DNA of 64,000 nucleotides from Trichopria drosophilae (Eukaryota; Arthropoda; Insecta; Hymenoptera; Diapriidae): assembly GCA_030407085.1 (NCBI GenBank), contig CM059582.1, positions 138,983,501 to 139,047,500 on the forward strand, read 5' to 3'. Below are positions 15,936 to 57,550 of the stretch, one piece after another; positions within the stretch are counted from its first letter, which is position 1; every line of letters starts with the position of its first letter. The notes below the pieces were generated by a model. It was not told where the DNA came from. It ran no database searches and saw only the letters and a program-made list of their open reading frames with translations. The translations under genes were made by a program, and so were the position numbers.

Positions 15936-15938
15936 TTT

Positions 15939-18739: not shown

Positions 18740-19498
18740 CAATCTTTGAGAAATACGCGTTTAAAAATTTCAATGGCGCTTTTTAATCCTACGGTATTGA
18801 GTGCAGTCGTTCCCAACATACTAAGAATTCATCAAATTGGTAGAAAATAATTTTCAAATTAAGAAACGCGACTATTTTTTATGCGATCATTGAGAAATAC
18901 GCGATTTGCTGGATACAGTGCGGTCTTTCGGAAGCTACTTAAAATTTATCAAATTGATAAAGAAACATTATGAAATTAAAAATCGCTAATATATTTTATG
19001 CGATCTTTGTGAAATACGCATTTTGAAATGTCATAGGCGTGTTTTAATCCTACTGGATTGAGTAGGGTCGTTATAAATATTCTTAAAATTTATGAAATTG
19101 ATAATGAGTCATTTTCAAATTAAAAAACGCGAATATTTTTTTTGCGATTCATGTGAAATACGCGTTTTGACATTTCAAAAGCGCGTTTTAATCCTACGGG
19201 ATGGAGTCCGGTCGTTTCCATTAAACTATGAATTCACCAAATTGGTAAAGAATCATTTTCAAATTAAAATCGCGAATATTTTTTTTGCGATCATTGAGAA
19301 ATACCAGATTTAAAATTTCAAAAGCGTTTTTTATTCCTACTGGATTGAGTAGGGTCGTTATAAATATTCTTAAAATTCATGCAATTTATAATCAGTAATT
19401 TTCAAATTAAAAAAGGCGTATATTTTTTATGCGATCTTTAAGAAATACGCGTTTAAGAATTTCAAAGGCGCGTTTTAATCCTACAGTATTGAATGCGG
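18740..19498. repeat. ~144-bp satellite, block 1
   Basis: Tandem monomers of 143-144 bp share the core TTTTAATCCTAC followed by GATTGAGT.CGGTCGTT, and the block GCGATC.TTGAGAAATACGCG. One monomer near 18900 is a short (~117-bp) variant. The block is cut at the left by element 1 and at the right by element 2. Confidence 0.92.
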
Positions 19499-19971
19499 TG
19501 TTGCGCGAGGCGACTTCAATTAATTAAAAAGTGAATTTATAAAATAATATGTAAATTTTTACCTTTACCTTATACACAGTCGTTGGAGGCTTGAATAAAT
19601 AACCACCGTCTTAAAGATTGAAAATAAAATACTTTATTTAGATTACACTAGCTAATATAAAATACTACTATTCGCAGCGGCGAGCTCCTGCTCAGGTCGC
19701 TTCCAGAACTAGAGTGTTGAGTTGAAAAAAAGAAAGATCGTTAAGTTCTGAATTTTGAAGACTCGCGAACGCGACCGAATTTGACGTTCCGCGAAAATGA
19801 CAACTTAAACGTCAACGGTGACAGCGCGTTTAAGTTTGAGTTCGACTGTACATAATAAACATACACAATGAAACACTCTTACTCACTACCATCCAATACA
19901 TACATAAACATCGCATAGATAATTAAACGGATCGTCTATATACTACATTGACATTAAAGCGGTTCGTAACA
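19499..19971 (-). repeat. 3' LTR of element 2
   Basis: 473 bp, TGTTGCGCGAGG to GGTTCGTAACA. It matches 42587-43043 apart from about 15 substitutions and a 16-bp segment between two TGAC repeats that is absent from the partner. Confidence 0.93.
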
Positions 19972-20293
19972 ATCCTCCCTTCTTAAAAACTCGACGTCCT
20001 CGTCGAACACATAATATGAGGAAAATTTTATATATATATATTTTTTTTTGTTTTTTTTTTGTTTTCTACATTTGTTTTTGCCCCCAAAAAAAAATTATCG
20101 AAAATATAAATACAGTACTTATAAAATACCTTATTTTAATACAAATATATAAATACAAATAAAATTAGCGGGGTGTAAGCCAGAACAAAAATGTGTGCTA
20201 ATATTATAATAATTTTTCCTTTCGCTTTTTATTGCAGAAGTTTCCGGATCTGAAAATAAAATAGAAATTAAAAAAAAATTTTAAAAAAGTATA
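19972..20293 (-). other. Polypurine tract and 3' UTR of element 2
   Basis: On the minus strand AAGAAGGGAGGAT immediately precedes the LTR start TGTTACG, a typical polypurine tract. The rest is AT-rich with poly-T runs and no gene. The 3' UTR continues beyond the nested transposon at 23259-23433. Confidence 0.75.
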
Positions 20294-20295
20294 TA

Positions 20296-20795
20296 CAGGG
20301 TGGCCGATTTATCTGAAGACAACGAAATATCTCGAGAACTATGCACAGAATCAAAAAAGTTGTCGGATGAAAGTTGTTCGACACGAAGGGGAGCATCCAG
20401 TGATAATTAAATTTACTCCCTCCCCCATCCCCTGGAGGTGGAGTGGGGGCAAAAACAATAAAACTTAAATAGGAACCCCCATTTTTTATTGCAGATTTGG
20501 ATTCTCCGGAAAAAAGTACACGAATTTGACCTAGGAGCTATTGCATTTTGGTTCACAGGTGGCGCTGTAATCGATAAAAATCCAAATTTATCCGAAGACG
20601 TTGAAATACCTCGAGAACTATGCACAGAATCAAAAAAGTTGTCGGATGAAAGTTGTTCGACACGAAGGGGGGGCATCCAGTAATAATGAAATTTACCCCC
20701 TCCCCCATCCCCTGGGGGTGGAGTGGGGGCAAAAACAATAAAACTTAAATAGGAACCCCCAGTTTTTATTGCAGATTTGGATTCTCCAATATTGA
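20296..20795. repeat. Left terminal and duplicated subterminal repeat of the Tc1/mariner-type element
   Basis: A ~200-bp block (TTGTCGGATGAAAGTTGTTC, a G-rich/C-rich run, AAAACTTAAATAGGAACCCC) occurs twice with a period of about 279 bp. The same block is found in inverse orientation at 22870-23258. Confidence 0.88.
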
Positions 20796-20862
20796 CAATT
20801 TTCGCCCCCGTAGCGGATATGGAATACGGTCATTCTAACAAAGCCGGAAAAAAATACATTTA

Positions 20863-20950
20863 GCGTTACCCAGGAACAACGACGTGGACGTAGTATTTTT
20901 CTGTTCCCTTTGGGGTGCTTGTTTTACGTGAGTCCCCTTGCCGCTCACTG
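20863..20950 (-). other. 88-nt transposase 3'-UTR segment shared with the piggyBac element
   Basis: On the minus strand this starts about 13 nt after the transposase stop. It aligns end to end with 41074-41162, which starts a similar distance after the piggyBac transposase stop. Shared blocks include GGCAAGGGGACTCAC, AAGCACCCCAAAGGGA, ACGTCCACGT and CCTGGGT, about 80-85 % identical by eye. A hairpin GTGAG[C/T]-N9-ACTCAC lies at its 5' end. Function is unknown. Confidence 0.85.
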
Positions 20951-20963
20951 TCTCACTGTTCAC

Positions 20964-22028
20964 TTACTTTAGTAAGTGTTCGAAATGTTGACCTTCCACT
21001 TCAATGCATTTATTTATTCTTTCTTCAAATGACTTTATACATGATAGAATCATATCTGCAGAAATTTCTGCGCAAGCAGTTCTTATGCGTTCCACCATGT
21101 TTTCACGAGTCGTTGGTACTTGTTCATAAACCTTACCTTTTAGGTAACCCCATAGGAAGAAATCCAGAGATGTTAGATCAGGTGACCTCGCAGGCCAATT
21201 AATGGGGCCACTTCTACCAATCCACCTACCATTGTAATCACGGTCTAGTATTTCCCTTGCTACTCTTGAAAAATGTGCTGGGCAACCATCATGCTGCAAC
21301 CACATTGTCCGTCGGACGTCCATAGCAACATCCTCAAGTAGTAATGGTACTTCTTGTTCTAGGAAATCTCGATATTTTGTTCCATTAAAATTACCTTCAA
21401 TGAAATAAGGACCAATGAGTTTATTTCCTATGATTCCACACCAAACGTTCACCGACCAAGGACGTTGATGATTAACTTGTCGTAACCAATGGGGATTTTC
21501 TACGCTCCAATAATGCATATTATGCCTATTGACGCCACCATGGTTCGTGAATGTAGATTCATCTGAAAATAATACATTAGCAAAGAAATTGTGGTTCGTT
21601 TGCATTTTTTGAAATGCCCATGCACAAAACACCACGTGGTTATGAAAATCATCGCCATCTAGTTCCTGGTGCAGTGAAATGTGATATGGGTGAAACTTAT
21701 GACGATGCAATATTCTTTGAATACTGTCTCTGGAAATGCCGGAATCGCGATGTAATTGTCGTGTGCTGACATGTGGATTTTGGTGAATAGCTGCTAGTAC
21801 AGCTACTTCGTTAGCTTCTCCTGTAACTGTTAATCTTCGCTTCCTTTTTTTCATTTGTACGCTGCCATCAGAGTGAAAGGCATTCACAACTTTGTAAAAA
21901 AAAGAACGCGAGCGAGCATTATATGGAAAACGCTCAGCATACAACGCAACAGCATCGTCAATATTCCTCTTACATTCACCATAAATAAGAATCATTTCGA
22001 TTTTTTCGGGAACTGTAGCAGGATTCAT
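20964..22028 (-). CDS. Tc1/mariner-superfamily transposase (intact, about 354 aa)
   Basis: The ATG at 22026-22028 is the first in the open frame; an upstream in-frame TTG extension is unlikely to be used. The N-terminal third has helix-turn-helix-like segments for end binding (STRQLHRDSGISRDSIQRIL). The catalytic DDE/D domain shows the first acid in LFSDESTF, the second in QHDGCPAH and the third in SPDLTSLDFFLWG. I count 41 residues between the second Asp and the Asp of LDFF, so a D,D41D type, which would fit rosa-like insect elements. No stops or frameshifts are seen. It performs cut-and-paste transposition into TA sites. Confidence 0.93.
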   Translation of the reverse strand: MNPATVPEKIEMILIYGECKRNIDDAVALYAERFPYNARSRSFFYKVVNAFHSDGSVQMKKRKRRLTVTGEANEVAVLAAIHQNPHVSTRQLHRDSGISRDSIQRILHRHKFHPYHISLHQELDGDDFHNHVVFCAWAFQKMQTNHNFFANVLFSDESTFTNHGGVNRHNMHYWSVENPHWLRQVNHQRPWSVNVWCGIIGNKLIGPYFIEGNFNGTKYRDFLEQEVPLLLEDVAMDVRRTMWLQHDGCPAHFSRVAREILDRDYNGRWIGRSGPINWPARSPDLTSLDFFLWGYLKGKVYEQVPTTRENMVERIRTACAEISADMILSCIKSFEERINKCIEVEGQHFEHLLK

Positions 22029-22850
22029 TTTTAACTTGCAATTCGATTTAAGCAATGAAGGGTAGACAAAAAATAGTCACGTAAACGGAAAGTTGTTATT
22101 CTAAAAGCAAAGTGACCTTCGACCGAATTACTACCAATACAATGGACTTCAAAAACAGTCTTACACTGAGAGACCGTGAATACTAAATTTTAATATGGGG
22201 ATTAGAAAGTCGCGATATCCATTTACTTCCCTTCAGGAAAGTAGAGAAAAATGTAGGTGAACTGGTTACGTGTGACTCAACTTATGTATAAAATGATATG
22301 CTACTTTATTTTCGAGTTATGTCGCACTCTAGCGTTATGTAACAGAACCGGCGCCGGTGATGGCCGAAATGCAAGCGATGTACATGTATGAAACCACGTG
22401 AGTTCTCTCGGGGTCCGGTAGATGGCGACGAAATCCCTAAATGACGTAAGAGTTTCGTTTTGTTTAATAGAAGCTGGTTTGACCGTCAATGCTCAGCTTA
22501 TTTATTCTCATTTCGGAAAAAACATACAGAGAGAGAATGAATGAGCTGAGTGAAGGGACATGACGCGTTTTTTAATGGATTGCGTGATGTCCTCTTTTTG
22601 TTTATTAAATAATAAATTTAAAACCTAAAATGTAATTTTATTGAAGGTAGAAAACTTATTTATAAAATTGCTTCCATATTGTATGCACAATTTTTATGTA
22701 ATCAGTTTTGATTTTTAATATGAAGAATATCAATTATTCATAATCTTAATTTTTCGAATGGACATTATTAAAATTTCATATTCAGAATAACAATTTTCGC
22801 AATTGATATTACTAAATTCTAATATTAAAAATTCTAATATTTTCATAAAG
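22029..22850. other. Non-coding interior of the Tc1/mariner-type transposon
   Basis: About 820 bp separate the transposase start from the right subterminal repeats. The promoter should lie near 22030-22250. I see only short ORFs with no family features. Confidence 0.5.
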
Positions 22851-22869
22851 GGATCAAATTGTCCCTATT

Positions 22870-23258
22870 TGCCCCCTGGATGCCCCCTTCGTGTCGAACA
22901 ACTTTCATCCGACAACTTTTTTGATTCTGTGCATAGTTCTCGAGGTATTTCAATGTCTTCAGATAAATTTGGATTTTTATCGATTACAGCGCTACCTGTG
23001 AACCAAAATGCAATAGCTCCTAGGTCAAATTGGTGTACTTTTTTCCGGAGAATCCAAATCTGCAATAAAAACTGGGGGTTCCTATTTAAGTTTTATTGTT
23101 TTTGCCCCCACTCAACCCCCAGGGGATGGGGGAGGGTGTAAATTTAATTATCACTGGATGCCCCCCTTCGTGTCGAACAACTTTCATCCGACAACTTTTT
23201 TGATTCTGTGCATAGTTCTCGAGATATTTCGATGTCTTCAGATAAATCGGCCACCCTG
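22870..23258. repeat. Right terminal and duplicated subterminal repeat of the Tc1/mariner-type element
   Basis: This is the inverse-orientation counterpart of 20296-20795 with two copies about 275 bp apart. It ends CGGCCACCCTG at 23258, next to the TA duplication. Confidence 0.88.
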
Positions 23259-23433
23259 TATACTAAGACGGGGACATTTCACAGAACAGAAGTATGTCTA
23301 GTATATTCACTTTAGTGTCAGAAAATCCTTGCAGGCAATAATTATTCTCTTCTAGGAAAGATAAACCTAAATATATACATACATTAGGACGGGAATAACT
23401 CACAAAATCGAAATATGTCCAAATGTATTCACC

Positions 23434-25077
23434 TTATATACGTGGAGACTTTCGAACATAATATATATTGAGTAGGAAATTTTTCCTGTCCTTCTTATGT
23501 GATTGAGCATTAGTTCCTCCTAAGTACATGGATAAAGGGGTGTTTCTGCCAATCGTACGCAACAATTCGTAGGCACGAGTTACAACCTCTCTACCAATGC
23601 CAATACAACCCTCCAGATCTAAGTTCCAAGTACGGAGAACCGGACATTAACCCACATATTTCTTCTCCACTAATTCCATAACAATCACGGGCCTCGAGAG
23701 TGCGCAATGTTAAGGGAGAATATAAGAAAGTGGCGACGATATTTGGACGAAGCATTGGCATCCTCAAAGACTCCAAATTTTCTAACTGTGCGAGCGGTTC
23801 CAAAGCAAAATCACTACGTATATTTGTACATCCTGTGAAGTCTAAGATCTGAAGCCGGTGCAGATTCTGGCCAATCTCGTCAATGAAAACATCGTCCACA
23901 AAAGGGCTGAACCTGAGCTCCAAAATCTGCAGATTTCTGCAAGCAGAAGTCATGCTCAGTCCTTCTGCCCCTAAATGGACATCAGGAAGTTCAAAAAACG
24001 GGGCAACATCGGCGAAATCCGCCTCCTCGCCAACCTCCTCCTCACTTTTCATTCCTTCTCCATATAATTTTAGAGAAATTAGAGCTTCGGGATTGGGGCA
24101 CATTGATAAGGCGCTTAAGATACAGGGAGCATCTATTTCTTTTCCTTTAATGATCTTAAGTTCTTTTAGGATTTGTTGGGTCTCGAGAAAATATGCCAAC
24201 TTCGAGGAAAGCAATGGATCACATCTATTGACCTGCAAACATGTTAATTGGGTTGTTAATCCTTTTAGACATTTTCCGGTTATTTGCGTCTCCGAGAAAG
24301 TAGTATTCTTTAGCAGCTTGTTCTCGCAGAATATTCGGTGCAGATCATAATCAATATGACCGACAACTTCTCCCAAAGTAAGGCTTCGTAATTTTCGCGC
24401 TCTATCACCCAAAATAAGAAAAGTAGTTGGTCTAAGGACTATTCCTAAAAGATCCAAATGCTCTATATTTAAACAATGTGTGGCAATAATGGAACCTATT
24501 TGAGGAGGAAGGTTATTACAAAGTTGCAAAGTCCGCAAACACCGCCCAGTCCTCCGAACCACCCAATATACCGCATCAATTGACAATGGAGAATCGTCCC
24601 AAGATCTGCCCCATAGCATCGAAGAGTCTGATAACCGCGTTAATAATTTATAAGACGCGATTACTCCATCTCGCCAAATCCTACATACTCTCCCCATACA
24701 GGCTCGTTCCGGGAATGAGAGAAAGGACGCAATCATCGCTATGCATTCTATAGGTAGAATAACGGTACTCTTATCCCTCATCTCACTCTCGATGCGGGCC
24801 GGGGCAATTCCCGAAGAACCACGATGATTCCAAGAATCTGCAGGTCGGATAACCAATTCGCGCTTATGAAGGATGTATTTGCACAGGTCACCACCTTTCA
24901 ACACGCGAATAGCCTGTTCGGAAGTAGCGAAGGTTACAAAACCTATATTTCCGCTCAATTGTTTATGTACGTAGGCACTTACGGCCCCAAATCCTTAAAT
25001 CGAGAGACAAGATGTTTGCTGGTGGTATATGGTGCCAAGCGTGCCACAAATAATCTATTTAATTTTGCCGTATCCAT
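23434..25077 (-). pseudogene. RRM + F-box + leucine-rich-repeat gene in the env position of element 2
   Basis: The ATG at 25075-25077 lies 72 nt after the integrase stop. Residues 8-30 carry an RNP2-like RLFVARLAPYT, and further on lies an RNP1-like NIGFVTFAT, giving an RNA-recognition motif at the N-terminus. An F-box follows (LPIECIAMIASFLSFPERACMGRVCRIWRDGV split around the two conserved helices), then about 280 residues of leucine-rich repeats (LRTLQLCNNL, LEHLDLLGI, LQILDFTGCTNI). Two one-base shifts break it: one in a G-run near 24985 inside the RRM and one near 23640; after the second the frame runs to TAA at 23434. F-box proteins recruit substrates to SCF ubiquitin ligases through the LRRs. 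It has no introns, is colinear with pol, and no poly-A or TSD of its own is seen, so I infer an element-borne captured gene. A processed host copy inserted in the element is the alternative. Confidence 0.75.
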
Positions 25078-25103
25078 CTATTAAAGAGAGAGAAAAAAAA
25101 GGT
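25078..25103 (-). promoter_or_regulatory. Splice-acceptor-like signal before the RRM-F-box-LRR gene
   Basis: On the minus strand CCTTTTTTTTCTCTCTCTTT AATAG runs directly into the ATG. The long pyrimidine tract followed by AG is a strong 3' splice-site consensus. It is placed as in retroviral and errantiviral env genes, which are expressed from a spliced subgenomic RNA. Confidence 0.65.
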
Positions 25104-25149: not shown

Positions 25150-25603
25150 TTAGTCATTACTGGCTAATTCAACCTTATCGACATGTTTAGTAAATCTTTT
25201 TCCATTTTCGTCTTGTAAGATTAAATTATTTTTCTCTAAAATATCAACAATCTTATAATTTCCTTTATATTTAGGCTGAAATTTCTTTGGTTTGGGCTCT
25301 ATTAAAATTCGAACATTATCTCCAATTTTTCCTTTAAAACTATTACATTTTAGATCATACCTTATTTTAGATTTATTTTTTGCAAACATTAAATTTTTTC
25401 CAGCTAAAACTTGCATTTCAGTTAGTCTTGAAATTAGATCAGATAAATATGTATTATAGGTTATAAATCCATCATTATCTGGAAAAGAGCTAGGACATCT
25501 CGCAATCCTTCCAAATACCAGTTCGAATGGAGTGAAGTTGGTGGCTTCATGAATGGATGTATTGTAGGAAAACATAGCGAAAGGTACCAGCCTCAATCAG
25601 TGT
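25150..25603 (-). pseudogene. pol: pol of element 2: C-terminal integrase fragment
   Basis: The fragment reads FSYNTSIHEATNFTPFELVFGR, the end of the integrase core (two parts of this motif also occur in element 1), then a GPY/F-like C-terminal module (YKGNYKIVDIL) and the stop at 25150. It is the downstream half of the integrase cut by the LINE at 25610-30612. Near the junction a TGA and a small deletion add damage. Confidence 0.85.
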
Positions 25604-25802
25604 AATTATAGATAGATAGATATTTATTTCCATACAAGAATATACATAAATTCCACGAGTAAACGAGTGTTCCTTTCCGAGTGATCGGTAAGACTTAGAA
25701 ATTAAATAGCTGATATAATACAGAAAAAATAAAAAACCGGGTATGACGCAAAAAATGAAAATAGACCTAGGCGGCGCATAAAAACAAAGAAAAAAACTGA
25801 AA

Positions 25803-28800
25803 TTAGAGACCGAGCAGAAAACCTCTCCTGCGATAGCAGCTTTTGACAAAAAAATACAAAGTCTTGGCTGTTTCCGAGTCGTTTGACGCCAAAAGGTATA
25901 GCAAGGGGTTTGATGCCCGGCACTCTAGCATTCCTGTGCTTCTGCGCAACTGATCGCGACATGGTTTCGTGTGCTGGCACTCGTCTAAAAAGTGAAGCAA
26001 AGTGTCATAAGACGATACATTACAGAGTGGGCAGTTGGTAGTAGGATCAAACTTATAAAACTCGCGCGCCAGGAACAATGAACGCGTAAAGATCGTAGCG
26101 GTTCGTAACTGCATTTTGACACGTGCATATTCAATAAGACAGCGGGTTGGATACGAATTTTCGTAGCCATCGGTGTAAACACGGTAGATGGGAAATTGAA
26201 TCGAGGCGGAGTTATAGTACCGCTGCAAATCATTCGCTCGCTGGTGTTGCGCGTAGGTTTCACAGATCAGATTAAGGTTCGCTTCCCAATAGTCGGCAGA
26301 CAAATTGGTCCACAAACCCGCATATTGTGGAGAGCACAGGACGAGCTTAAGCTGTGCTACCCAGTTGTACGCCAAGGCATCGTTGCCTCGTTGGCACAGA
26401 TTAGAAAGGCGGATAAACCCCATGCGAGGGAGACTCGCAGGAGACTGTCTCAGTAGACGAATAACGAAAAGGAGCGCACGTGTTGTGATCTCCACAGATA
26501 TGGGGAATAAGCCGAGTTCCAGACGAACAAGGTATGCCGGTGTCGACCTAGGTAAGCAATACAGGCGCTTAAAAAATTTTATTTAAATAGCTTCAAGATG
26601 GTCAAAATACTGAAGAGCCCAGCAGGGGGCTGCATAGAGCAGGACAGAAATTATCATCGCCTGATAAAGTTTTAATGATCCGGCCCACGCATCCACTTTA
26701 GCCGAGGCCATTATGGCTAGGACAGAGGCCGTTGCTTGCCGCGTCCTTACCACAGCGTCCTCGGTTGCCTTGAGGCCCTTGATCGACGACGAGACCACTA
26801 TAACCAGATACCTGAGAGTCGATACTATATCCAGAGGCAACTCTGCATAAAAGAAGCTTTTAGAGGAGGCATCAAGACGACCACCTTTTCTGAAAGCAAT
26901 TATTTTTGTTTTGGAGATGTTTACCGTTAGTTCGTTCATTCGACAGTAGTCCTCCAAAATGCAGAGCATAGCCTCAAGATCGACAGGGGAATAAGCAAAG
27001 ATCGTCAAGTCGTCGGCGAAGAGCAACATCAGGAGATCATAGGTAAGCGTGTAGTCGATTCCGCGAACACCTCTAGCTCGAAAAAAGGAAACAATGTCGG
27101 CTATAAAAAGAATAAATAGAAGTGGACTGACAATTTCGCCCTGCAGTACGCCCGTTGAAATTTTAAAAAGGTCGGAGACAGCACCGGCGCTGGATGTCGA
27201 AACAGTTGCAGTCACATACATGCTTCTCAGGAAACGGATTAATTTAACGCTTAAACCGGGAGTGTATAACTTCTGCCACAGAAGATCATGGGGGACAGAG
27301 TCGAAGGCGCGGCGGTAATCTACGAATAAGGCATAACACTTCGCGGCCTTACGCCTTAACTGAATCTGGGCGGCAGCCAGAAGGGTGAAGATGTTTTCTT
27401 CGGTGGAACGACCCCTTCTGAATCCGGACTGCTCATCGGGCAGCACGTTGGCTCGAGTAGCCCATGCATCCATCCTCTCCACGACTATGTGGGACAGAAG
27501 TTTCGCAAACGCATTGGTAATAGCTATCGCGCGATAATTTTCCGGGTTGTGCCGGTCGCCTTTCTTGAAGAGCATGAACAAATTGGCACTCATCCAGCTG
27601 TCCGGAATTTTTTATATAAAAAGATGTAATTTAAAAGGTCAAGAACAGATTCCCGCCAAGTTCCCCTTAAAAGTTTAATAAGTTCCGCTGGAATGCCATC
27701 GGGGCCAATGGCCTTGCCGGATTTCAATTTGCTCAAGCTCCTCAGGAGCTCGCACTCTGTGAAAGGGACATCCAAAACATTATCGTAGGTACCAAAAAAG
27801 GTCATCATAGCAGGAGTCTTGGGCGGATATAAAGTTGCCAAATGCAAGTTCCATGATTCGATGGAGACTGCCGGAGCTCGCGGGAAAGAACGTCTGAGTG
27901 TGCGAACCGTAGCCCAGAATGTACGAGACTCCCTGACATTGGCAAATTTGGCCGTAATCGCCATTGCGTGGCTTCTTCTTGACTTCTGGATGGTCTGAAC
28001 GTAAGTTTTTCTGATATCAAGATAGGTTTTTTCCGAAAAATCAGAAAAGTTCCTACGCAAGTCAGCCAAAGCTCGACCTACTGATCTCCGAGCTTTCCGG
28101 CAGTCGGCATCAAACCAGGGCTTGCAGGAGCGCGTTACCTCAGGGCGGACGTGAGTCTCACGCAATAGACCAGCCGAATTAGCGACATTTAGTAGAAAGG
28201 AGGAGAAGAGAGGGCAGGTCGCATCACTGACTTGGGTACTGTTTAATATAGCAGGAGGGCAAGATTTGTCTAGCACCTCGACAAATTTGCTAAGACCTTC
28301 AGCAGAAAGATGGAACCTCCGTCTTCTTCCTACCGCGGCTGCAACTCTCGAAGCTTCCTGAGTAGAAAAAGACAGCGCCAATTTAAGCACGACGGAAAGA
28401 TGGTCTGAGCCTCCAGAAATCGTACCAATTTCAAGGTCATTAACATATATTAGGTGATCACCAGAGATCCAGACCAAATCAACGGTGCTGCGGTCTCGCT
28501 CGCTGAAAAAGGTAAAATTGGCCGGACTGTCGGGTTTCATGCGACCGTTAAGGAGAACAAAACTGGTTTTGAACATAAAGTCATATAAACGAGCACCTCT
28601 TGAGGAGAGTGTGCGGTCACGCGTGAGCCTATCGGATACAAGAAGGGTGCCATCAAAAGTCTCCGAGAGACCACGTTCTAAATCAAGGGAGCCCACCCGA
28701 GAATTAAAATCACCTCCAAGTATCATTATAGCTGTAGGATAACAAATAGAAAATTTATCAATGGTTAGTTGCAGGCTGTCTAGTAAAAAAGTAAGGTCGG

Positions 28801-29226
28801 ATTCTGAGGGAAAATAAAAAGAACCAAATATTGCATAGAGCGGCGACGATTTAACAATTGAAAAAATCCAGTTATCGGTGATTTCAAGAGTCTCGGGGGA
28901 GCCCTGTGACGGAATAATGGTTAAAAGGCAACCGCTGGGTCGACCAAAGACATATTTAAAGGACCATGGATGTTCCAGAAGAGGATTGTTAGCTCAGTGA
29001 CAGCCGGATCCTTCGGAACACTCGCAGGATGGTGGTTGAAGGTCGGCAGAGTGGCCGAAGTAGATCGAGGTAGAAGCCTGTGCGCAAGAACCGCCGAGTA
29101 ACAACGACCGCCCCCGTCCTTGCTTACAGGGACGGTTTCAAGGCGTTTTTTGTATGTAGCAAAGCTGAAGAACTGGATGGAATCCGCACTGGCGAAATCG
29201 GGATGGGAGCTGTCTTGCTCACGCAT
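25803..29226 (-). pseudogene. LINE 1 ORF2: endonuclease, reverse transcriptase, CCHC
   Basis: The start ATG is at 29224-29226. Endonuclease begins with LTILFWNIHG, then loses roughly 90 residues (an internal deletion near 28950 that also shifts frame) and resumes at FGRPSG, GGDFNSRVG and SGGSDHLSV. RT shows GPDGIPAELIK, AIAITNAFAKLLS, DEQSGFRRGRST, FVDYRRAFDSVPH and the catalytic FADD. A frameshift lies near 27590-27620 and TAA at 26583 is in frame. The C-terminal part has CPLCNVSSYDTLLHFLDEC, a CCHC motif. The protein nicks DNA and copies the RNA at the target; this copy cannot. Confidence 0.88.
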
Positions 29227-30096
29227 CGAAAATTGTCGTGTTCATCGGACCAAGCATACCAATCATCATCAATCTGCAGGCGAAGAATTCACGAGCGCGA
29301 AAGGTAATCTTCGACTCACGTTCAGTCAAGTCCCCAGAGATGAAAACAGTCTTGCCAGCAAGGAATCTCCGCTTGTTCGCCAAAATGGATGCCTTTGCAC
29401 AGGATGAAACCAACTCCACCAAAATAGTGAGAGGCGATTTTTTGATGACGTACGCTACATCGACTAGGTTGTCGAGTTTGAAGGTTGCCGAGAGAAACTG
29501 CTCGACAGAGGAAGTGACGTCATCGGCAGTTCTGAGCCCTTTAATTATGATATTTTTCTTCCTCGCAGCTCGGTCGAGCACTTCATACTTGGTCGTCAGT
29601 CGTTTGATTTCTTCGTCCTTAGCGGCAATGGTTTTCTTGAGGCCGCCAATTTCAGCCGTGACTTCAGTCTTAAAAGAAATGAAGGCATCGAGACTCAGTT
29701 CGCCTTTCCAGAGTAGCCTCGTCAATCTTGCTGTTTACTGCGTCAATTTTGGTTGTCAAGGCGCCGATTATCGAATCTTTCAGTTGCTGGAAAGCGTCGG
29801 CGTCCATTGCGGAAAAAGCAGCGACTGGAGCGGATTTGTTGGGAGAAGATGGACATAGGCGAATTTTCGCCGGTTGCGAAGCTTCTTCCTCAGCAATCAG
29901 CGGTTTATCCGGCGAACGTTGACGCTTGACCGTCTCGTAGAAGTTGGTGATAGAGGCTTGGGGCTGTTAACGAGGGTCGGCCCACCGCAGAAGCAGTTAT
30001 TAGCGGAGAAGAGAAAGGCACGCCCCTAGCACCGGTAGTCGTAGATACGGGCGTCGGCTCTGAGCGAAGCGTTGGGGGAATCCCCTCCTTCGACAT
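29219..30096 (-). pseudogene. LINE 1 ORF1: coiled coil and L1-ORF1-like RNA-binding domain
   Basis: ORF1 likely starts at the ATG at 30094-30096. Its N-terminal part is Ser/Pro/Thr-rich and changes frame once or twice between about 29725 and 29960. From 29725 the frame is clean: a heptad-like stretch (GGLKKTIAAKDEEIKRLTTK), then ARKKNIIIKGL, typical of the RRM-like domain of L1-type ORF1 proteins, ending at TGA 29219. It would bind the LINE RNA. Confidence 0.65.
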
Positions 30097-30612
30097 AAGA
30101 GGCTCCCGGTAGCTGCTGCCTCTGGCGAAGGCTCTTAGAAGCAGGGAGACGAGCGGAGAGCTAAGCAGCAGACAGAGTGTCGGAAACTACGTCACAGATG
30201 CGCACTGAAAAGTGCGCATCACAATAGCAAAAATTACTCCGACCACGTGGCACAGAAAAATAAAGAATCAATAATGCAATGCACTACCAACTTGCTTCTA
30301 CAAACGGAGAGAAGTAGAAACAGGCACTCCCGCACTAGAACAGAGCGTGACAGGTGATACCACGGTTTGACAGAAGGTGTCAATGACAGCCAGATGTAGG
30401 TTATGTCACACTGCCGAAATTTAAGAGACGGCGAAAAAAAAAAACTTCGCGTCAATATAACAGAAAAAACTACAGAGCACAGGGAGATCGATCGCGAAAA
30501 TCGATATGCAGCGTGTAATTCTGCAAACACCGGAGAAAGCTAAAAAAAGCAGAGAAATGACGGGAGCAGATAAAAGCAGGTGCTAACGGTTGCGCAACCG
30601 GAAACGAAACTC
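30097..30612 (-). other. 5' untranslated region of LINE 1
   Basis: About 0.5 kb with no convincing ORF. The 5' end begins GAGTTTCGTTTCC next to the TSD. An internal promoter is expected for this type of element but I see no clear motif. Confidence 0.55.
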
Positions 30613-30618
30613 AATTAT

Positions 30619-31492
30619 CAAGATAATGACTAATATACTCTATTAACACTATATGACTTCTTTCTAAACTTCCATTTGTTTGTGGCCGATATGCCGAAGT
30701 CCTCAAAGGAGACATTTTAAAAATTCGTGATATACTTGTCATCAATTTAGCAATAAAATTCGGACCTCTATCTGTTAATGTGGCCCTTGGAGCTCCATAT
30801 ACAAGTATTAATCGCGTTACCAAAGCATGTGCAATGGTTTCGGCTGTAATATCAGGTACCGGAACAGCAACACAATATTTAGTCAAATTATCTTGCATTG
30901 TCAAAATGTATTTATTTCCACTGGGTGTTATTGGCAAAGGACCAACAGCATCCAATGAAATTTTCTCAAAAGCGTTTATAGGAGTATCAGTTATGATCAT
31001 AGGCTCCCTCGTTTTTGATCGGACTAATTTTCTCTCTTGACAGCTTTTACAAGTTCGAATATAATTTTGTACGTCATTTCTAAGTCCTGGCCAGTAGAAT
31101 CTTTCCCTAATTCGTCTATAGGTTTTAGTAACCTCTTTATGTCCCCCAATTAAACTATCATGCAATTCAGTAATTATGTTTGTACGCATATTTTCAGGAG
31201 GTACTTGTACATTTCCTCGACAAATCTTGATTTTAATTTTAGATTTTAAGAAATATTCATTTAATAATTGTTTTAATTCTCCTTGATTATTTACTTTTAC
31301 AAAATCTCCAATTTCTGAAATTCTAAATGATTCTACTCTTAAATTAATTAGTATTTTCTTTAAATTTAAAAGAGCAATTCTTAAATTTTCTTTCGATACC
31401 GAATCAAAATGGTTTTCTTTAATTATTAAACTAAAGACTTTGTACTGACTAAAAGGAGTAACTAAAATTTGGCCTATTTTAGGTTTCAGTGA
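30619..31492 (-). pseudogene. pol: pol of element 2: N-terminal integrase fragment
   Basis: The frame contains a ~100-residue pre-integrase segment (about 31190-31490), the HHCC zinc module (ELHDSLIGGH ... CKSCQ) and most of the DDE core (SLDAVGPL, LTDRGPNF, the E in NGSLERSH). It is cut by the LINE 1 insertion at 30612. The other half is at 25150-25603. Confidence 0.88.
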
Positions 31493-32716
31493 TTAAAATT
31501 CATCTGCATTCAAAATGCCTAAATCCGTCAAAAGTTTCGATATTGAAGTTACAAATTCCCCATTAGCTGACATAAAATGTATATAATTGTCTTTACTATA
31601 CGTCAAATTTTCTCTTATATAAACTATATCACCGTCGTTACTCATTTGTCCGTTTAATAAATTAAAATCAGTGTCTATAAATTCATGTACTGAGATTTTA
31701 TCCAAATCAGTAGTTACATTTGATGGTATTAATTTTCTGGGACGCATTACATCTTTAGATTCACCCTTTCCTCCCTTCTTAGAATCCTGTTTAGATTTCG
31801 GAGAATTAAAATGATCTTCCTTTTCCATTGGTGTGGAGAAGGCAATAGGATTGGGTATATTTAAAGGTGTCATCAACGTATTATATGACATAGGATTCTT
31901 TAACACACTGTCCTCTATTATACTAGGTTTTGACCTAACCGTAGAAAATTTGGATTCTATATTTTCATTAATGACTTTTAATCCTAATTTATGATTTGTC
32001 CTGCATTCTTGAACTGGTCTAGTATTTTCCTTATCCTCTGAACTCATTTTCCTATTATAACTGTCAATTAACGTCTGTTCATTCCCATTTGTTGATTTCG
32101 TTATGGGATTAGTACACATTCCTCTAGATTTCTATATATTACTTTCAATCTCTGGTACCGGAATATATCCTCGACTACGTATTGAACTGTCCAAAAGATC
32201 AAAAGATTTTCGCATTCCTTCAAGGTTTAATGTGATTGAATCTGAATTTTGGGAAATCGTTTGATCCACTTCAGACTCATTATCATCACTATTATTTTCT
32301 TTCTCTGATAAATTAATCGCGATCGGGTAAGAGGTTTCTTTCTCCTCTGAATCTTCCTTTGATCCTCCAAAAACCAAAGCCCTTCCCTCTTCTGAAATCG
32401 GGGTTTTACACATAGACTCCTGAATAGTACTAGATTCCAAATTAGGGAATATACTTCTTTGTTTTTGAAAGATCGGTGGAGTATCTTCTTTATCTATTGA
32501 TTCTAAAGATATTTCTTAGTCTGAAGTAGTTTCAACAGGATCTACTATTTCTTTAGATGATAGACTATTCGTACAAGTTTGCGGATGAGATCGAGTTCTG
32601 CGAGCAATAGCACTAAGATCCATTGGTTTAGGTACTTTATTTGTTTTCGATCCTAACGGTCTACCGGGTCTTTTTTTTTGGTATTTCTTGTTTTGTATTA
32701 AGTTGTTTATCTTCAT
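31493..32716 (-). pseudogene. pol: pol of element 2: RNase H-integrase linker with AT-hook
   Basis: A long polar linker is in the same frame as integrase but interrupted by in-frame stops at about 32516, 32132 and 31493. Its start has KKRPGRPLGSKTNK, a good AT-hook (minor-groove DNA binding), followed by RRTRSHPQ. The remainder is Ser/Asn/Glu-rich with no recognised fold. It occupies the slot that holds the G-patch in element 1. Confidence 0.6.
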
Positions 32717-35074
32717 TATTTAATGTTTCTAAAGATGATTGATTTCCTTTAATTAATGGCAGTAATATTTTTCCGTCTTCTATACTACGATGTCCTAACT
32801 CAGAATTAATTAGAATATTATCATCTTCTCGTATCGGATTTCTCGATAAAGCATCAGCATTTGTATTTAGGGACCCGGGTTTATATTTAAATTTATAATC
32901 GTAATTTTGTAACTTTAACCTCCATCTAACCAGACGTTGACCCGGATCCTTAACCGAATCAATCCACTGTAAAGGATTATGTTCCGAAACTAAAGAAAAT
33001 CTATTCCCATATAAATAAGGCCGATAATGTAAAACTGCCAAGCATTCCTTTTCGGTGGTAGAATAATTAGTCTCTGGGTTGCTTAAGCTTTTTGAAAAAT
33101 AGGATACAGGTAGATCCATTCCATCAACCTTTTGACTTAACACTGCTCCTACCGCATAATTTGATGCATCCGTAGATAATTTAAAACGTTTACTAAAATC
33201 TGAATATTGCAATTTAGGTGGAGTGCATAATTTTTCTTGAAAAACTTAAAACTTTTACTTTCTTCCTCGCCCCAATGGAATTTAGAGTTTTTCTTCAATA
33301 AATCTGAAAGTGGCTTCGCTATCTTGGCATAATCTTCTATAAATCTACGATAAAAACCTGTTAACCCTAAAAATTCTCGTATATTTCTTTGAGTGTTAGG
33401 CCTAGGAAACCGTTGTATAGCCTCTATTTTTTCTGGATTAGGCTTTAATCCCTCGCTACTAAGAATATGACCAAGAAACTTAACCTCTTTTCTTAAAAAC
33501 TCGCATTTATCCAAATGTAATGTTAATTTGGCATCTTTTAATCTCTTAAATAATTTTTGTATCATCTTTGTATGTTCTTCTAAATCTTTAGCGAAAATAA
33601 CTATATCGTCCATATATACAAAAAGTTCGGTTCCCGTTAAACCCCTTAATACATTGTCCATTAATCGTTGGAACGTAGCAGGCGCATTTTTGAGACCCTC
33701 CGGCATACGAACATATTCATAATAACCATTTGGAGTAGTAAAAGTAGTTTTATATTTATCTTCATCCGTCATCTCAATTTGTTGAAACCCAGAATTTAAG
33801 TCAAATACACTGAAATACATTGCATTGCCTAATTTATCCATAATGTCGGTAATATTTGGTAAGGGATATGCATCTTTAACAGTCTTATCGCTTAATTTTC
33901 TGAAATCTATGAATAATCTCCATCTAAGGCTACCGCTACTATCTGGTTTTTTTGGAACTATCCAAATAGGAGAATTATACGGGGACATAGAGGGAGTAAT
34001 AATTCCTTTTGCTAATTTATCTGCAATTTGATTTTCAATTTCTCGTTTCTGAATAGGGGGAAACCTATATTGTTTAGTATTTATAGGAATATTATCCTCT
34101 AAAGGTATTGAATGACGAATATACGAAGTAGATTTTAACTCATCACCTGGTATATAAAATAAATCTTGAAATTCTCTAATTAAATCCTCAATATAACTAC
34201 GTTCCTCTGAATTTAAATGATTCAATTTTGACTTATGTAATAAATACGATAATCTGTCCTGCGGTGAAGTAATCCGTATATTATCTATATTATCATCATA
34301 TTCATCACTATAATATTCTTGTTCCCCAGCTAAATCATAACAATCAAAAGGAATTAATTCTTGTGCGGGTATTTCCATTTCTATGTCCTTATCTAATGTA
34401 TTTATGGCTAATATTTTACAGGTTCCGTTATTTACTGTCACTATCGATTCGCCAAGATATAGTCCCTCTATAGTGTCGATTTTAGGTAAATATCCCTCTA
34501 GCAAATCATCATTTACTATATCTAAAGTAATTACGGTTTTAGCTCTTTTTTTAAACAAATAAATTCGGGAATTGAAATCCGTTGCCTCTCTATTAAAACT
34601 ATACCCGATTGGTTTTTTTAAGAATTTAATTGGAGTTATTGGATTAGAAGCCAATAACAAAGTATTATAGTGTAATGATATAATTGCTAATTCTTTATCC
34701 AAATATTCTTTTCCTAATATTCCATCGCAATCTAACGGGAATGTTGACGGAACCACATAAAACTTTATAATACTATTTTCAAAAATATTCGTTTCGATGG
34801 AACCTAATGTTTCAGTTTTATCATCATTAATTCCTTTTAAAAATATCTTATCATCAGTATCCATTCTCGATTCTGGATTTAATGCCTTTAACTTTACGAT
34901 GGATACTTCTGCTCCGGAATCAACTAAAAAGATTTTTGGATTTTTTATAAAATCTACACTTTCAACCACCACTTTAAGTGCATTAGTATTCATGTTGACT
35001 GTTTTGATGCTTCTAGTTCTTTGACGAATTTGACTTACGGATGACGCTGAATGTTGTCGGTCTGGCTTATCCAT
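32661..35074 (-). pseudogene. pol: pol of element 2: protease, reverse transcriptase, RNase H
   Basis: The frame opens in the 40-nt overlap with gag (a -1 shift). It has protease LVDSGAEVSIVK and CDGILGKEYLD, a linker similar to that of element 1 (GYLPKIDTIEGLYLGES), and RT with GLKNAPATFQRLMD and YMDD. A one-base shift near 33200 moves RNase H into the next frame (LSTDASNYAVG; SEHNPLQW, with His-Asn where His follows Asp in active relatives; NADALSRNP). About five or six residues are missing after ECLAVLH. A further shift near 32690 leads into the linker. Confidence 0.92.
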
Positions 35075-36149
35075 GCGTCTGTTGAACGAGTCAGGGTCGA
35101 GTTTAAAGAACTAGAAGGAGTACTTTGTTCACGCGAGATTGGCGATTGCTGAAATTGAATGCGCGGCCCATTATAACCCGGGTAATTATTATAATAATCC
35201 GTTCTGTATGGTCGTCTAGGAGAATTACCCCCATTATATGCTGGTACATTCTGATAATATGGAGATATATTTGGCATATAATTTGGTGGTGGAAAAGGTG
35301 GAGCATAACCAAAATAAGGTGGTGGGTACATACGCATTGGAGGATATGGCGGATAATGCGGCCACATCGGCTGTTCCACCATATTATTATATCGCACAGG
35401 AAATTTTTCCAAATTTGGTGGCTTTAAAATTCCCGAGCTTGCTTCATTTTTAGCACTCGATTTAATAGGGGACATTTGACCATTAGAATCTCTTCTTATC
35501 GGATAATTATGACTAGTCAAATATTCTACATCTTCACTACCATGTTTCATTGTTGATAATGACTGAAATCCTAAACTTTTTGGTTTTATTCTTAATTCAA
35601 GTCTCTCAGCATAACGTAATGCTTCATCTAAATTTTTAGGGTCCCTAGCGTCAACTAAACCTGAGATCTCGTCTGGTAAACCCCTCAAAAATGACTCTAA
35701 CGCGCAATCATTTAAAGGTTTTACCATTTCTGAAGCCGCGTTGCCATATGTAGAAGTCGCTCCCTCTACCAACATATTTAATCGATCATAAAAGTCATTT
35801 ACAGTTTCTCCTCTTTTCATTTGTACTTGTTGTATTTCATGAATGAAAAACGGATAATTTTTCCCGGAAGCAAATCTAGTTTTCAAATGTTTAATTAAAT
35901 CATTTATTTTTTCAAATGTTTTACCGAAAACACTATCGCGAGTAGTACCCTGCAACTTCCCAACTATATTTAGTTTACTAAAGATTTTTCAAAATCGTCT
36001 GCTACGTTTACAGCTGCACTCTGAACGTCTAGGAGAAAATTTTTTAAAGGCATATTTTTACCGTCAAAATATGAAATGTTTGACATCGCATTTTGCAAAA
36101 TCATGCACTCTGACATAGTAGTAATTAATTTAGTCGTTGTTTCGTCCAT
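35035..36149 (-). pseudogene. gag: gag of element 2, proline-rich, no zinc knuckle
   Basis: The ATG is at 36147-36149. The first ~57 codons are in one frame; a one-base shift near 35975 moves the capsid-like part (TVNDFYDRLN, ALESFLRGLPDEI, LDEALRYAERLE) into the frame ending at 35035. The C-terminal third is rich in Pro, Tyr and Asn and contains PPPY (in MYPPPYFGY), a late-domain motif for budding through ESCRT. There is no CCHC; basic residues near the end may bind RNA. It overlaps pol by 40 nt. Confidence 0.82.
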
Positions 36150-38493
36150 ATTTGCAATTTTAAATTGTAATAAAAATAAAAAACAAATAAAATAAATTAA
36201 TCAACTAGACAGAATTAAAATAAGTAACATACAAAATCACGAATAAAATAAATTAAAATGTATTTGTCAAATAAATAAAATTAAATTAATATGTAAATAA
36301 AACTAAAACAAAAAAAAAATTACTGTAGTCAAAATTATAAAAATGTGATTAATTATTATTAATAATTCTATGATCAATTATTTGAAAACAGAAATGTTAA
36401 ATAAATAAAATAAAAGGTAAAATAATTTAATAAGTTATAAGTTACACTATTTTAATTCATTTCTACGTAATCGCATACGGTTCAAAAGCCTTACTGAGAA
36501 TCAAAACAAACAATTAGAAAATGCCTTTAAATAATTGGACTATACTCAAGTACGATGCAAAAATAATAATTAAAATCGATTTTATAAGAATTCGTTGGAG
36601 TTTAAAACTCGAAAATTAATTTATTATATAATAATATTATCAATCACTAAGTACATGTATTAATTAAAATAGTAACACTGCGGGGAAAATAATCACGGTA
36701 TGATACACAGCAGGTCACTATTTAAAAACAAAAATAACTTTCATGAATTTCAACTAAATGCAAGAAAATAAAAAAAAAACACAACAAAATTTAATATTAA
36801 ATTAATGTAAAATCAAATATTCTAACTTAAACAGAAATAATCTCCTATTAAAAATTATAAAATAAATTACTTTAATAAATCAAATTCCTTATTATTAAAT
36901 TTAAATACCAACTGTATTATTTTATTCTACGAAAATGCATAACGTTCAAAGACCTTTCCAAGAATCAAAACAAATAATTTGGTAAACCTTTGAATGTTTG
37001 AAGGTAATATAAAAATAATGTTATGAAATTACGAAATTATTACTCTATTTGTGTTTTTTTTTCTTGTAAGCAATGTAATGTTTTAATAATATTTTAGCAC
37101 TGTAATTTAAAACAAATATCTAATACAATAACGCTACAAATTATGATTCAGAACGAAAATTAATTTTATTCACTCAAATAAAGTAATACCGAAATAATAA
37201 ATTATTTGTCCCTTTAAACGTTTCATTCAATTCCCAAAATTTTAAATGATATAATATTAATTTATAGTAGACTTTCTTAATTAAAAATCAATTTTGCATT
37301 TTGTCACTTTTAACTACGTTTAATTATAACTAATAAAATCAATTAAAAGAAATTTCACAAAAAAAATAAAATAAAATAAATTATATTTAAAATTAATTAG
37401 AAATAACAATTCGATACTCTAACATTTTGTTATTAAATTATCAAAATTTTAATTGGTATAAGTTTTATTAATTTACACAAACCTTAACACTATAATTAAT
37501 TTTTATTTTTTTTTAATTTTATACCAATAAGATTTATATGACTTGATCAATTTAAAATATCTTTGTTTGATTATAAAACAACGTGATTCAGCAATGGGGC
37601 ATAGCCAGATAACAGAATATTGCTGAATAACGTGTTCGAGAAAAATTACAATATAATAATTTATAAATTTTGAATTAAATAATTATTTTAAATAAACACT
37701 TCACTTATTTTCTTTTCTTAAAAATTCATAAAATAAGTATAATTTACAGTTCAACTGCCACGTGGTTTAACAATAGGGCAAAGCCATATAATTAAATATT
37801 ATTTAACCACGTTTCTTTTTTCAATTTTAAAATTTTAATAAATTTAGTCACTAATTTTATGAATTTTTAGCACAAAACCTAAAATAAAATTTAATTAGTA
37901 CACATAAAAATAAAATATATTCTTAATCTAAAATTATTCTAATAATCATACGTGTATTTAAAACTGAAATAAATTTTGAATTTCTAATTTTCCGTTTAAG
38001 TTTAACAAAAGTTTAATCAAACTAAAAAATTATCTATTTTTTTTAATACACAATTAATATAAAATAAAACATAAAATGTGTAACGTTGAATTTTTCCTTT
38101 ATTTAATTTCTTAAAAAAAGTTTACAGGTATATACAACTAAACTGCACAAAAAAATTTTTTTTTTATAGGACGCGACCTAAAAATGCGATTTCCGCCGGA
38201 CTGGTCTGATTACTCTCCTCCGCCCACGTTGCCGGAAGTAGAAATTCCCTGTCTAGCCTCTCTCACTACCTTCCCAAACTTCCTCGCTATCTTCTTCGCG
38301 ACCCACGTCAGCCCCTTACTCCCACTTCCGGTTTCTCGCTACTTCCGGTCTGACTCGATATTCTAATAATAAAACACAACAAAAAAACGATCCTTCTATT
38401 TTTCCTCACCACCCTCGATCCACTCACGAATTAAAAAACGATTTTACTACTTCGACTCGCTATTCGCCACTTCCGGTACACTACCTCGTCACC
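36150..38493 (-). other. Leader of element 2, inner part
   Basis: About 2.3 kb of AT-rich sequence without a believable gene. Two ~70-bp segments resemble each other (about 36465-36535 and 36930-37000, sharing AGAATCAAAACAAA.AATT), and two others share AT.GGGCA.AGCCA.ATAA (about 37594 and 37772). The GC-richer end (38170-38490) has four copies of the octamer ACTTCCGG or its complement. Confidence 0.55.
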
Positions 38494-38750
38494 TTAACCT
38501 TTTAACGCCGGGAAAAAGTGTAAAATCAATTTTTGATAAAACACATAGATTTGCAGAAAAAAAACATTATTTATCTTCAGTCAACTACCCATATATGTGG
38601 CACATGTAACGTAGCCGATATATCGGCCATCCCCGGCAGCAACTTCAATTTGAAGAAAAAACCTTTTCAAAAAAAAATTAGGGTGTATCCTTATGTTTTT
38701 CGATGTGCTGAATTCGATAAAAATACTCAAAAAAGTCTTGGAATTGTTTT

Positions 38751-39040
38751 TGACCTTGAAAACAGCTATTTCAAGGTCAAATTTTTTTTTCTATTTCGGA
38801 TTGTTCCTTGATATTTCTACGTTTTTTTGACTTTCTGAATACGGGAAAAATAATATAAAAAAATCTTAAAATTATTTTGACCTTGAAAATAGACATTTCA
38901 AGGACAAATTTTTTTTTTTGCTATTTTGACTTGCTACTTCGTAACGTGAAGTTTTTTGTCATACTGAATACAGAAAAATAGAATAAAAATTTTTATAGGT
39001 ATTTTTGACTTTGAAACTAACTATTCAAAAGTCAAATAGA
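38751..39040. repeat. Left subterminal palindromic repeats of piggyBac (three units, ~127 bp apart)
   Basis: Palindromes of the form TGACCTTGAAA-N-TTTCAAGGTCA start at about 38751, 38878 and 39005 (the third degenerate), embedded in units with GAATACGGGAAAAATA. The matching inverted set is at 41360-41650. Confidence 0.85.
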
Positions 39041-39403
39041 TCCATATAAATTTTTCAGCTAATTTATTTTCTACTTTGCGCATTTACCTTTTGACACGCT
39101 ATAAACAGGAAAAATAGTAAGAAAAATCCTAAAGTTATCCATACTTTAGAAATTTTCGGTTCAAAATAATACAAAATTCGTTGAGTTACTTTTGCTACTG
39201 TCGTTTCACAGTTTCTTTACAAACATTTTTCTGAAGGCAGAAAAAAAAAATAAAATACTGAGTGGAGAGGTTGCTACACGCCTTGACCCCCTCATTCTTT
39301 TTTTCTTTACATATATTTCGTTTTCCTTTTTGTTTATTGAAGTTTATTGAAGTCTCAATTTGTTTTATTATTTGTTGTGAATTTGTTAGCCTATCTCGAT
39401 AAA

Positions 39404-40984: not shown

Positions 40985-40998
40985 TGTAATCTATTTCA

Positions 40999-41112
40999 AG
41001 TGAGTGGCAAGGGGACTCACAGTAAAAAAGCACCCCAGTGAGTGGCAAGGGGACTCACAGTAAAAAAGCACCCCAGTGAGTGGCAAGGGGACTCACAGTA
41101 AAAAAGCACCCC
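40999..41112 (+). repeat. 38-bp direct repeat, three copies, behind the piggyBac transposase
   Basis: Three exact copies start at 40999, 41037 and 41075, each containing GTGAGTGGCAAGGGGACTCAC, which can fold into a 6-bp hairpin. The homologous 3' UTR of the Tc1/mariner-type element has only one copy. Confidence 0.95.
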
Positions 41113-41162
41113 AAAGGGATCATATTTTCGCCACGTCCACGTTCGTTGATCCTGGGTGACGC
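41074..41162 (+). other. 89-nt 3'-UTR segment shared with the Tc1/mariner-type element
   Basis: It aligns with the reverse complement of 20863-20950. See that entry for the shared blocks. The first 38 nt are the last copy of the triplicated unit. Confidence 0.85.
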
Positions 41163-41359
41163 AAAGAGCGAAAGCCAAAAAACAAATCAGAAATTTTTTC
41201 AATTATTTGACAATCATATTGTGACGTAGTTAGGTCCAAATGATTACTTTTAGAATCAAAGATTGACCTAAACGTTTTCTAAATCAAGTATGAAGTAAAA
41301 GTCGAAGACGAAAAACTTCGGGATACCAAGTAACAAGCCGGTATAAGAAAAAAAAATTT

Positions 41360-41985: not shown

Positions 41986-42030
<45 letters not shown>

Positions 42031-57545: not shown

Positions 57546-57550
57546 ATAAA

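Follow-up and report, generated by a model that had tools for sequence, protein, structure and literature searches.

The capture of a cellular gene by a retrovirus is exemplified by v-src, a cellular-type gene that Rous sarcoma virus carries downstream of pol, behind an acceptor-like signal. In the env-bearing Gypsy elements of insects, which are errantivirus-like and have an envelope gene of the Baculo_F type, gag and pol (protease, reverse transcriptase, RNase H and integrase) are followed on the same strand by an extra open reading frame. F-box proteins feed substrates to SCF ubiquitin ligases, and the F-box/leucine-rich repeat (FBXL) proteins are not known to have an RNA recognition motif (RRM).

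Among env-less insect Gypsy elements, an accessory gene has been described in the MDG1 group, where, according to one study, sORF2 encodes a transmembrane, fusogen-like protein of 63-107 residues and lies downstream of pol in some Lepidoptera (PMC11952523). F-box or F-box-like proteins tied to Skp1/SCF and acting on AGO1 are documented in plants: FBW2 is reported to assemble an SCF that targets AGO1 (PMC9035678), and polerovirus P0, which bears an F-box-like motif, is reported to target AGO1, with autophagy, not SCF, named as contributing to AGO1 degradation (PMC6593998). The literature searched, outside whose scope lay most subscription journals and Repbase, yielded no description of an animal LTR element with an F-box gene, and the main-text portions obtained of PMC12992720, PMC13172572 and PMC6338049 do not contain the term 'F-box'. 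An earlier description or database entry of such an element may exist.

The window, by which we mean the whole 64,000-nucleotide stretch of Trichopria drosophilae DNA analysed here, contains a complete LTR insertion on the minus strand, spanning 43043 to 19499 and referred to below as element 2, with an RRM-F-box-LRR gene behind its integrase. Its features, read along the minus strand, are as follows.

43044..43047, minus strand: target-site duplication CCGC, 5' side, from the flanking sequence, in a 144-bp satellite
42587..43043, minus strand: 5' LTR of element 2, 457 nt, TGTTACG...TAACA
42566..42583, minus strand: primer binding site TGGTGTCAGAAGTGGGAT, from the sequence
38110..42450, no strand assigned: nested, GC-rich leader material, a probable solo LTR of another element of ~9 kb; edges approximate
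about 38490-41785: piggyBac-like insertion with TTAA ends, splitting the probable solo LTR (ORF 39341-40984)
35035..36149, minus strand: gag-like region, interrupted, from position and by eye; start codon from the sequence
33149..35110, minus strand: protease/reverse transcriptase ORF, Pfam RVT_1 1.6e-37
32661..33245, minus strand: RNase H ORF, Pfam RT_RNaseH 5.7e-31
30611..31492, minus strand: integrase, N-terminal and core part, Pfam Integrase_H2C2 4.8e-24 and rve 2.3e-8
25600..30610, minus strand: LINE-like element in the integrase gene, from ORFs; edges approximate
25150..25596, minus strand: integrase C-terminal part and stop, from continuity with related integrases
25078..25102, minus strand: pyrimidine tract and AG at the ATG, splice-acceptor-like, from the sequence; counterparts in families B, C, E and F, doubtful in D
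23434..25077, minus strand: RRM-F-box-LRR gene with two frameshifts, from ORFs and Pfam; uninterrupted relatives exist
20292..23262, minus strand: mariner-type element (by eye) in the 3' region, with TA ends and an open transposase frame
19973..19984, minus strand: polypurine tract AAGAAGGGAGGA, from the sequence
19499..19971, minus strand: 3' LTR of element 2, 473 nt, from a direct-repeat match
19495..19498, minus strand: target-site duplication CCGC, 3' side, from the flanking sequence

With its LTRs, target-site duplication, primer binding site (which we take to be that for tRNA-Leu) and polypurine tract, and with the order protease, reverse transcriptase, RNase H, integrase, element 2 belongs to the Ty3/Gypsy elements (Metaviridae). 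Its two LTRs differ by 16 substitutions over 457 aligned positions (K2P 0.036), and the 144-bp satellite, followed by eye, reads on across the insertion gap. The TG...CA ends of the LTRs and the 4-bp CCGC duplication, both seen in the window copy, set element 2 apart from the env-bearing insect Gypsy elements. Parts of the coding framework fall short of profile recognition: the protease (RVP) scores 15.6 bits, under the cut-off of 20.7, no Pfam gag family matches the gag-like region, and the C-terminal part of the integrase has no Pfam match. The best-scoring named relatives of the reverse transcriptase are hymenopteran (Trichogramma kaykai, wasps, ants and bees), first among them T. kaykai at 45% identity over 87%.

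Element 2 holds nested LINE-like, mariner-type and piggyBac-like elements and probably a foreign LTR, all named by eye, with Pfam backing only the LINE reverse transcriptase (RVT_1 1e-31, 26583-27611) and the piggyBac-like transposase (DDE_Tnp_1_7 6.7e-87). The sole Pfam match of the mariner-type element is the helix-turn-helix DUF4817 (9.4e-12); its inverted ends are long and partly duplicated, its 370-codon frame is open and it looks recent. The GC-rich stretch of the leader (about 38110-38490 and 41790-42450), with its repeated 18-mer, is probably the LTR of another element, and six occurrences of this 18-mer form one row at a spacing of ~2.8 kb at C2:92754644-92768591. Satellite monomers of 144 bp lie at 18750-19498, 43050-44050, 48900-51930 and 57440-58100; this satellite is the insertion site of element 2 and, seemingly, of the neighboring element 1, and the similarity of its copies varies along the array. 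An inverted repeat at 59130-60085 has 437-nt arms that are 89% complementary and 82 nt apart.

As the original prediction had it, the RRM-F-box-LRR gene adjoins the integrase on the same strand, with the integrase stop at 25150, the ATG at 25077 and a gap of 72 nt, and the ATG is abutted by a pyrimidine tract and AG, CCTTTTTTTTCTCTCTCTTTAATAG (20/20 pyrimidines), which is the most pyrimidine-rich acceptor-like site on the sense strand of element 2. The gene had also been called intron-less, which holds for the coding region, but the window copy is not intact, with frameshifts near 25000 and near 23620. Of the domains read from this copy, the F-box stands (22.5 bits against a Pfam cut-off of 20.5), and the RRM is only suggested: the part that follows the frameshift scores 14.1 bits, short of the 20.7 required. 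The 467-codon frame greatly exceeds what chance gives, the maximum in 1000 Markov shuffles being 191, and it contains 11 strict LxxLxL motifs against 3.1 expected, a count reached in 1 of 2000 shuffles; a looser leucine-rich repeat pattern shows a weak excess (18 against 12.2 expected; 105 of 2000 shuffles). AlphaFold2, given the window ORF alone without relatives, returned an unusable model (pLDDT 31). The same ORF has no homologue at E <= 10 in a large protein collection, a search that by estimate is sensitive to about half identity at best, covers the family A ORF of the window and does not show absence from other insects; viral and prokaryotic contigs likewise gave none, with the window ORF or with the family alignment.

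The association of gene and element extends well beyond the window. The same genome (936 Mb, 509 contigs) contains at least 99 matches to the gene's protein, from 91 of 336 candidates scored; 48 of them span query residues from 8 or lower to 450 or higher, and 35 of these lack an internal stop, the frameshifted window copy and a locus termed L043 being included. Uninterrupted frames of about 550 codons are common among the copies. Fifty loci were examined, the top 30 matches plus 20 of the others. At 47 of them a Gypsy integrase precedes the gene, in the same orientation and no more than 1.5 kb away; the remaining three are L012, with a truncated gene, L032, where the contig ends 167 nt upstream, and L043, with no integrase in 3 kb. 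Grouped by similarity and protein start, the 50 loci comprise families A (14), B (8), C (8), D (15) and E (4) and the single L043, and a sixth family, F, is represented by L051, fetched separately behind another integrase. Protein identity is 66-69% among A, B and C, 70% between E and F, 42-45% between A-C and D, and 32.5-36% otherwise. Whether copies sit between an integrase and a matching 3' LTR had been posed as a check: within the 1.5 kb of flank examined, 7 of 13 further family-A loci have 468 or more of the 473 nt of element 2's LTR behind the gene. A purine tract and LTR start come 567, 529 and 193 nt beyond the gene in B, D and E, the families compared for this feature. In B and E, the point at which the copies' flanks diverge coincides with the AACA that closes the LTR.

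The view from the integrase is concordant. It covers the first 90 of 150 scored rows (2651 candidates) and counts the gene as a scored F-box match no more than 1.5 kb downstream. The concern that other copies of element 2 might lack the gene is not borne out, for at least 30 of 32 integrases that are 86% or more identical to that of element 2 have it; at lower identity it is found behind at least 9 of 13 (74-85%), 21 of 31 (64-73%) and 5 of 14 (57-63%). Five of the nine rows without a match in the last class share one score and frame length and resemble family F, and the gene is present in the single one of these that was fetched. Two family-D copies have LTRs that match at 99.4-100%, and several D, B and F integrase rows lie within open frames of 1573-1657 codons, so the families that carry the gene have probably been active recently. 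The observation is thus confirmed and reaches beyond one copy, and the interpretation of the gene as element-borne is supported.

The gene had been said to stand in an 'env slot', and the term can be taken literally because all three of the more distant relatives fetched (integrase identity 54% for L052, 57% for L053 and 52% for L054) carry a Baculo_F-type env there, with Pfam values of 2.3e-7 and 2.7e-19 in two frames of L052, 1.6e-38 in L053 and 2.2e-30 in L054, and with furin-like sites in the env of L053 and L054. Element 1, which occupies 1-18740 of the window on the minus strand, is a Gypsy element whose reverse transcriptase is 55% identical to that of element 2 over 347 residues; its env encodes a Monjiviricetes-type fusion glycoprotein (PF24664, 1.4e-161 and 7.7e-54 in two frames). 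The pairing is not new in kind, since a passage on mosquito gypsy and BEL/pao elements reports type III glycoproteins of the Monjiviricetes kind (PMC13172572). From these env-bearing relatives it follows that the F-box gene occupies the slot of env in a lineage with env-bearing kin. Element 2 shares with the env-bearing insect Gypsy elements the order of gag and pol and an extra same-strand ORF behind them, but differs in what fills the slot: no env glycoprotein gene was seen after its integrase, and the RRM-F-box-LRR gene stands there instead. By position, families and the env-bearing relatives fetched, element 2 is a member of a Ty3/Gypsy clade with this gene where its kin have env. MDG1-group elements with sORF2 are similar in being env-less insect Gypsy elements with an accessory gene, but the gene described here encodes ~550 residues of RRM, F-box and leucine-rich repeats.

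Comparison of dN/dS between uninterrupted copies, which the original prediction had called for, gives about 0.15-0.22 over the longer distances, indicative of purifying selection. In pairwise Nei-Gojobori counts (NG86) on copies with open frames, the ratio is 0.162 for A-B, 0.191 for A-C, 0.216 for B-C, 0.155 for E-F and 0.154-0.182 among three D copies; dS for these pairs is 0.67-1.28, and Yang-Nielsen ratios are 0.155-0.215. Recent copies of the same family, with few changes between them, give 0.30-1.50, as expected because such copies already sit in the genome. Uninterrupted frames and ratios of 0.15-0.22 across six families indicate that selection maintains the gene and that the elements have handed it down, under purifying selection, in at least six families. 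It therefore serves, we infer, the element's own multiplication. Whereas v-src is one recent capture, the element gene, of putative cellular origin, is common to at least six diverged families and is under purifying selection.

Expression from a spliced message, as for env, had been proposed as well, and this proposal is partly supported, by acceptor-like sites. In a survey of 32 copies with a readable start, with family F judged by eye, an acceptor-like signal abuts the ATG in A (7/7; 17-20 of 20 pyrimidines), B (7/7; 12) and C (4/4; 18) and lies 3 nt from it in E (4/4; 20 pyrimidines) and 5 nt away in F. The site in D (10/10; 10-11 nt from the ATG, 11-12 of 20 pyrimidines) is doubtful, being no better than the sequence before L043 (11 of 20, 10 nt). 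Near the env start of element 1, taken as a control, there is no acceptor with 16 or more pyrimidines. On the donor side, the native leader of A (window copy) offers two 7/9 sites at best, and neither it nor the pieces fetched of the B and D leaders gave a site of at least 8/9; the 5' LTR of B was not found in those pieces. By position and by analogy with env, the gene is likely spliced.

A perfect donor, AAG/GTAAGT, at 41918, which an in-frame ATG precedes by 12 nt, had been thought joined to 25077 and was rejected as part of a foreign repeat. Its 18-mer occurs exactly 36 times in the genome and 29 times with one mismatch (control 1), and among 62 of the 99 matches to the gene, a comparison that left out most fragments, split pieces and small-contig copies, the window copy alone has a same-strand occurrence no more than 40 kb away. 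Four pairs of the 18-mer are ~9.1 kb apart in the manner of LTRs, and the donor is therefore probably part of a foreign repeat nested in the leader. At the other end of the gene, a donor-like site (8/9) coincides with the stop codon (23433), and an acceptor-like TTTTATTTTCAG was noted by eye at 20250, beyond the mariner-type element; the two are a possible intron in the 3' untranslated part.

Seven uninterrupted proteins were scanned against Pfam at cut-offs of 20.7 bits for RRM_1 and 20.5 bits for F-box. RRM_1 exceeds its cut-off in four of them (L002 26.8, L015 25.9, L044 26.0 and L051 23.2, from families A, B, E and F), as does F-box (L002 24.6, L015 25.2, L021 25.6 and L043 22.1, from A, B, C and L043 itself). 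The F-box is under the cut-off in D and E and none is reported in F; D (L032) passes neither cut-off, C and L043 fall short for the RRM, and the Pfam leucine-rich repeat families stay below their own cut-offs. A profile built from eight proteins matches structures in the PDB over all three parts: the RRM of hnRNP A1 at the N-terminus (4.6e-5) and also that of U1A, the F-box of FBXL3 (0.005), and the repeats of FBXL2 (1.1e-12), FBXL17 (1.7e-6) and SKP2 (2.6e-5). The F-box residues L108, P109, I116, L120, R125 and W135 (L002 numbering) are identical in all eight aligned proteins, and an RNP1-like xxFxTF stretch is present in seven and altered in L043. With a predicted F-box domain and leucine-rich repeat array, the protein resembles the F-box/LRR (FBXL) proteins, and its N-terminal RRM distinguishes it from FBXL2, FBXL17 and SKP2.

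These features suggest a mechanism. A spliced subgenomic RNA would give rise to the protein, in the manner of env, and the protein's F-box would dock on the host's Skp1, so that the host SCF ubiquitin ligase could be directed at a host protein bound by the leucine-rich repeats. Through its RRM the protein would reach RNA that belongs to the element itself or to the small-RNA machinery targeting the element, and the most plausible target would be a germ-line silencing or restriction factor. P0 and FBW2 offer precedents from plant systems, likened here to the element gene by their described action on AGO1. The whole explanation, a clade-borne gene in the env slot that is under selection and works as an SCF adaptor on a host factor, we put at a probability of about one half.

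The best-surviving alternative is that the gene encodes an RNA-binding regulator of the element, acting in export, packaging or translation of its own RNA, with the F-box and repeats setting its stability or partners. The RRM, which passes its cut-off in A, B, E and F and whose profile matches hnRNP A1 and U1A, speaks for such a role, as does the F-box, which fails to pass in D, E and F; because of the latter, the gene may act independently of the F-box in these three families. The identity of the F-box core residues in 8/8 proteins and the retention of a long leucine-rich repeat array, beyond what an RNA binder would need, speak against it, and we regard it as rather unlikely.

Other alternatives turn on L043 (G000:C2:206829271-206830653), an uninterrupted 581-codon homologue of the same architecture that is equidistant from the element families compared (33.5-37.4% identity). 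In its 7.4 kb the integrase, reverse transcriptase and gag of element 2 find no match with an E value under 0.2, and the LTRs of the fetched copies were not found there either. An open frame at this distance without an integrase argues that L043 is a cellular gene that selection maintains in its own right. Its surroundings are not free of repeats: upstream of it, 33 nt are similar (88%) to the 3' region of family A, and 149 nt (91%) to the flank of L006. L043 may represent the host gene that was captured or else a domesticated descendant of an element gene, and the element gene probably derives from a cellular gene of the L043 type. Cellular RRM-F-box-LRR genes are annotated after C. elegans EEED8.10; the literature passage found on EEED8.10 gives nothing on its domains. 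The higher GC of the gene than of the reverse transcriptase in element 2 (43.6% vs 31.5%) fits a foreign origin without proving it.

Were L043 the cellular counterpart, perhaps itself acting on retroelements, the element gene might mimic or outcompete it as a decoy or redirected version. The intact frame, shared architecture and pol-free surroundings of L043 favor this, while its possible status as a domesticated element gene, with the two repeat-like stretches nearby, counts against it; we consider it improbable. To a similarly low degree we credit multiple captures from cellular genes, by which the six families would not form one gene lineage. An unrooted protein tree places L043 with E and F against A-D with a support of 100, and the distances among the groups ABC, D and EF are similar to their distances from L043, with the exception of ABC and D (42-45% identity). 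The same tree is equally produced by a single capture with L043 as outgroup, and the slot is shared and the integrases are related throughout. A tree of the integrases is poorly supported and is given no weight here.

That a processed host pseudogene landed by chance behind the integrase of element 2, for which its GC content and an A-rich tract between the gene and the 3' LTR might be cited, is refuted by the other copies, with integrase linkage at 47 of 50 loci, six families and purifying selection between them, and the window copy lacks the pseudogene's hallmarks of its own target duplication, with none beyond an AT-rich 10-mer, and poly-A.

We return to the proposed element-borne SCF adaptor. 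A conserved adaptor-like gene with an RNA-binding end in the place of env suggests that infection was swapped for the handling of the host inside the cell. More specifically, and tentatively, the clade may have given up env, taken on an RNA-binding SCF adaptor and used it to remove a silencing or restriction component; the gene would then be a retroelement-encoded F-box protein that selection has long preserved and that families active in recent times still carry.

If this is true, a lineage of insect retroelements trades cell-to-cell infection by env for control from inside through ubiquitin-dependent degradation. Its gene would offer a natural system for a direct target search, with predicted sites for docking (F-box), substrate (leucine-rich repeats) and RNA (RRM), and through L043 one could test where the gene came from or whether it was domesticated. 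The identity of the target may in turn name a factor that restricts retroelements in these insects.
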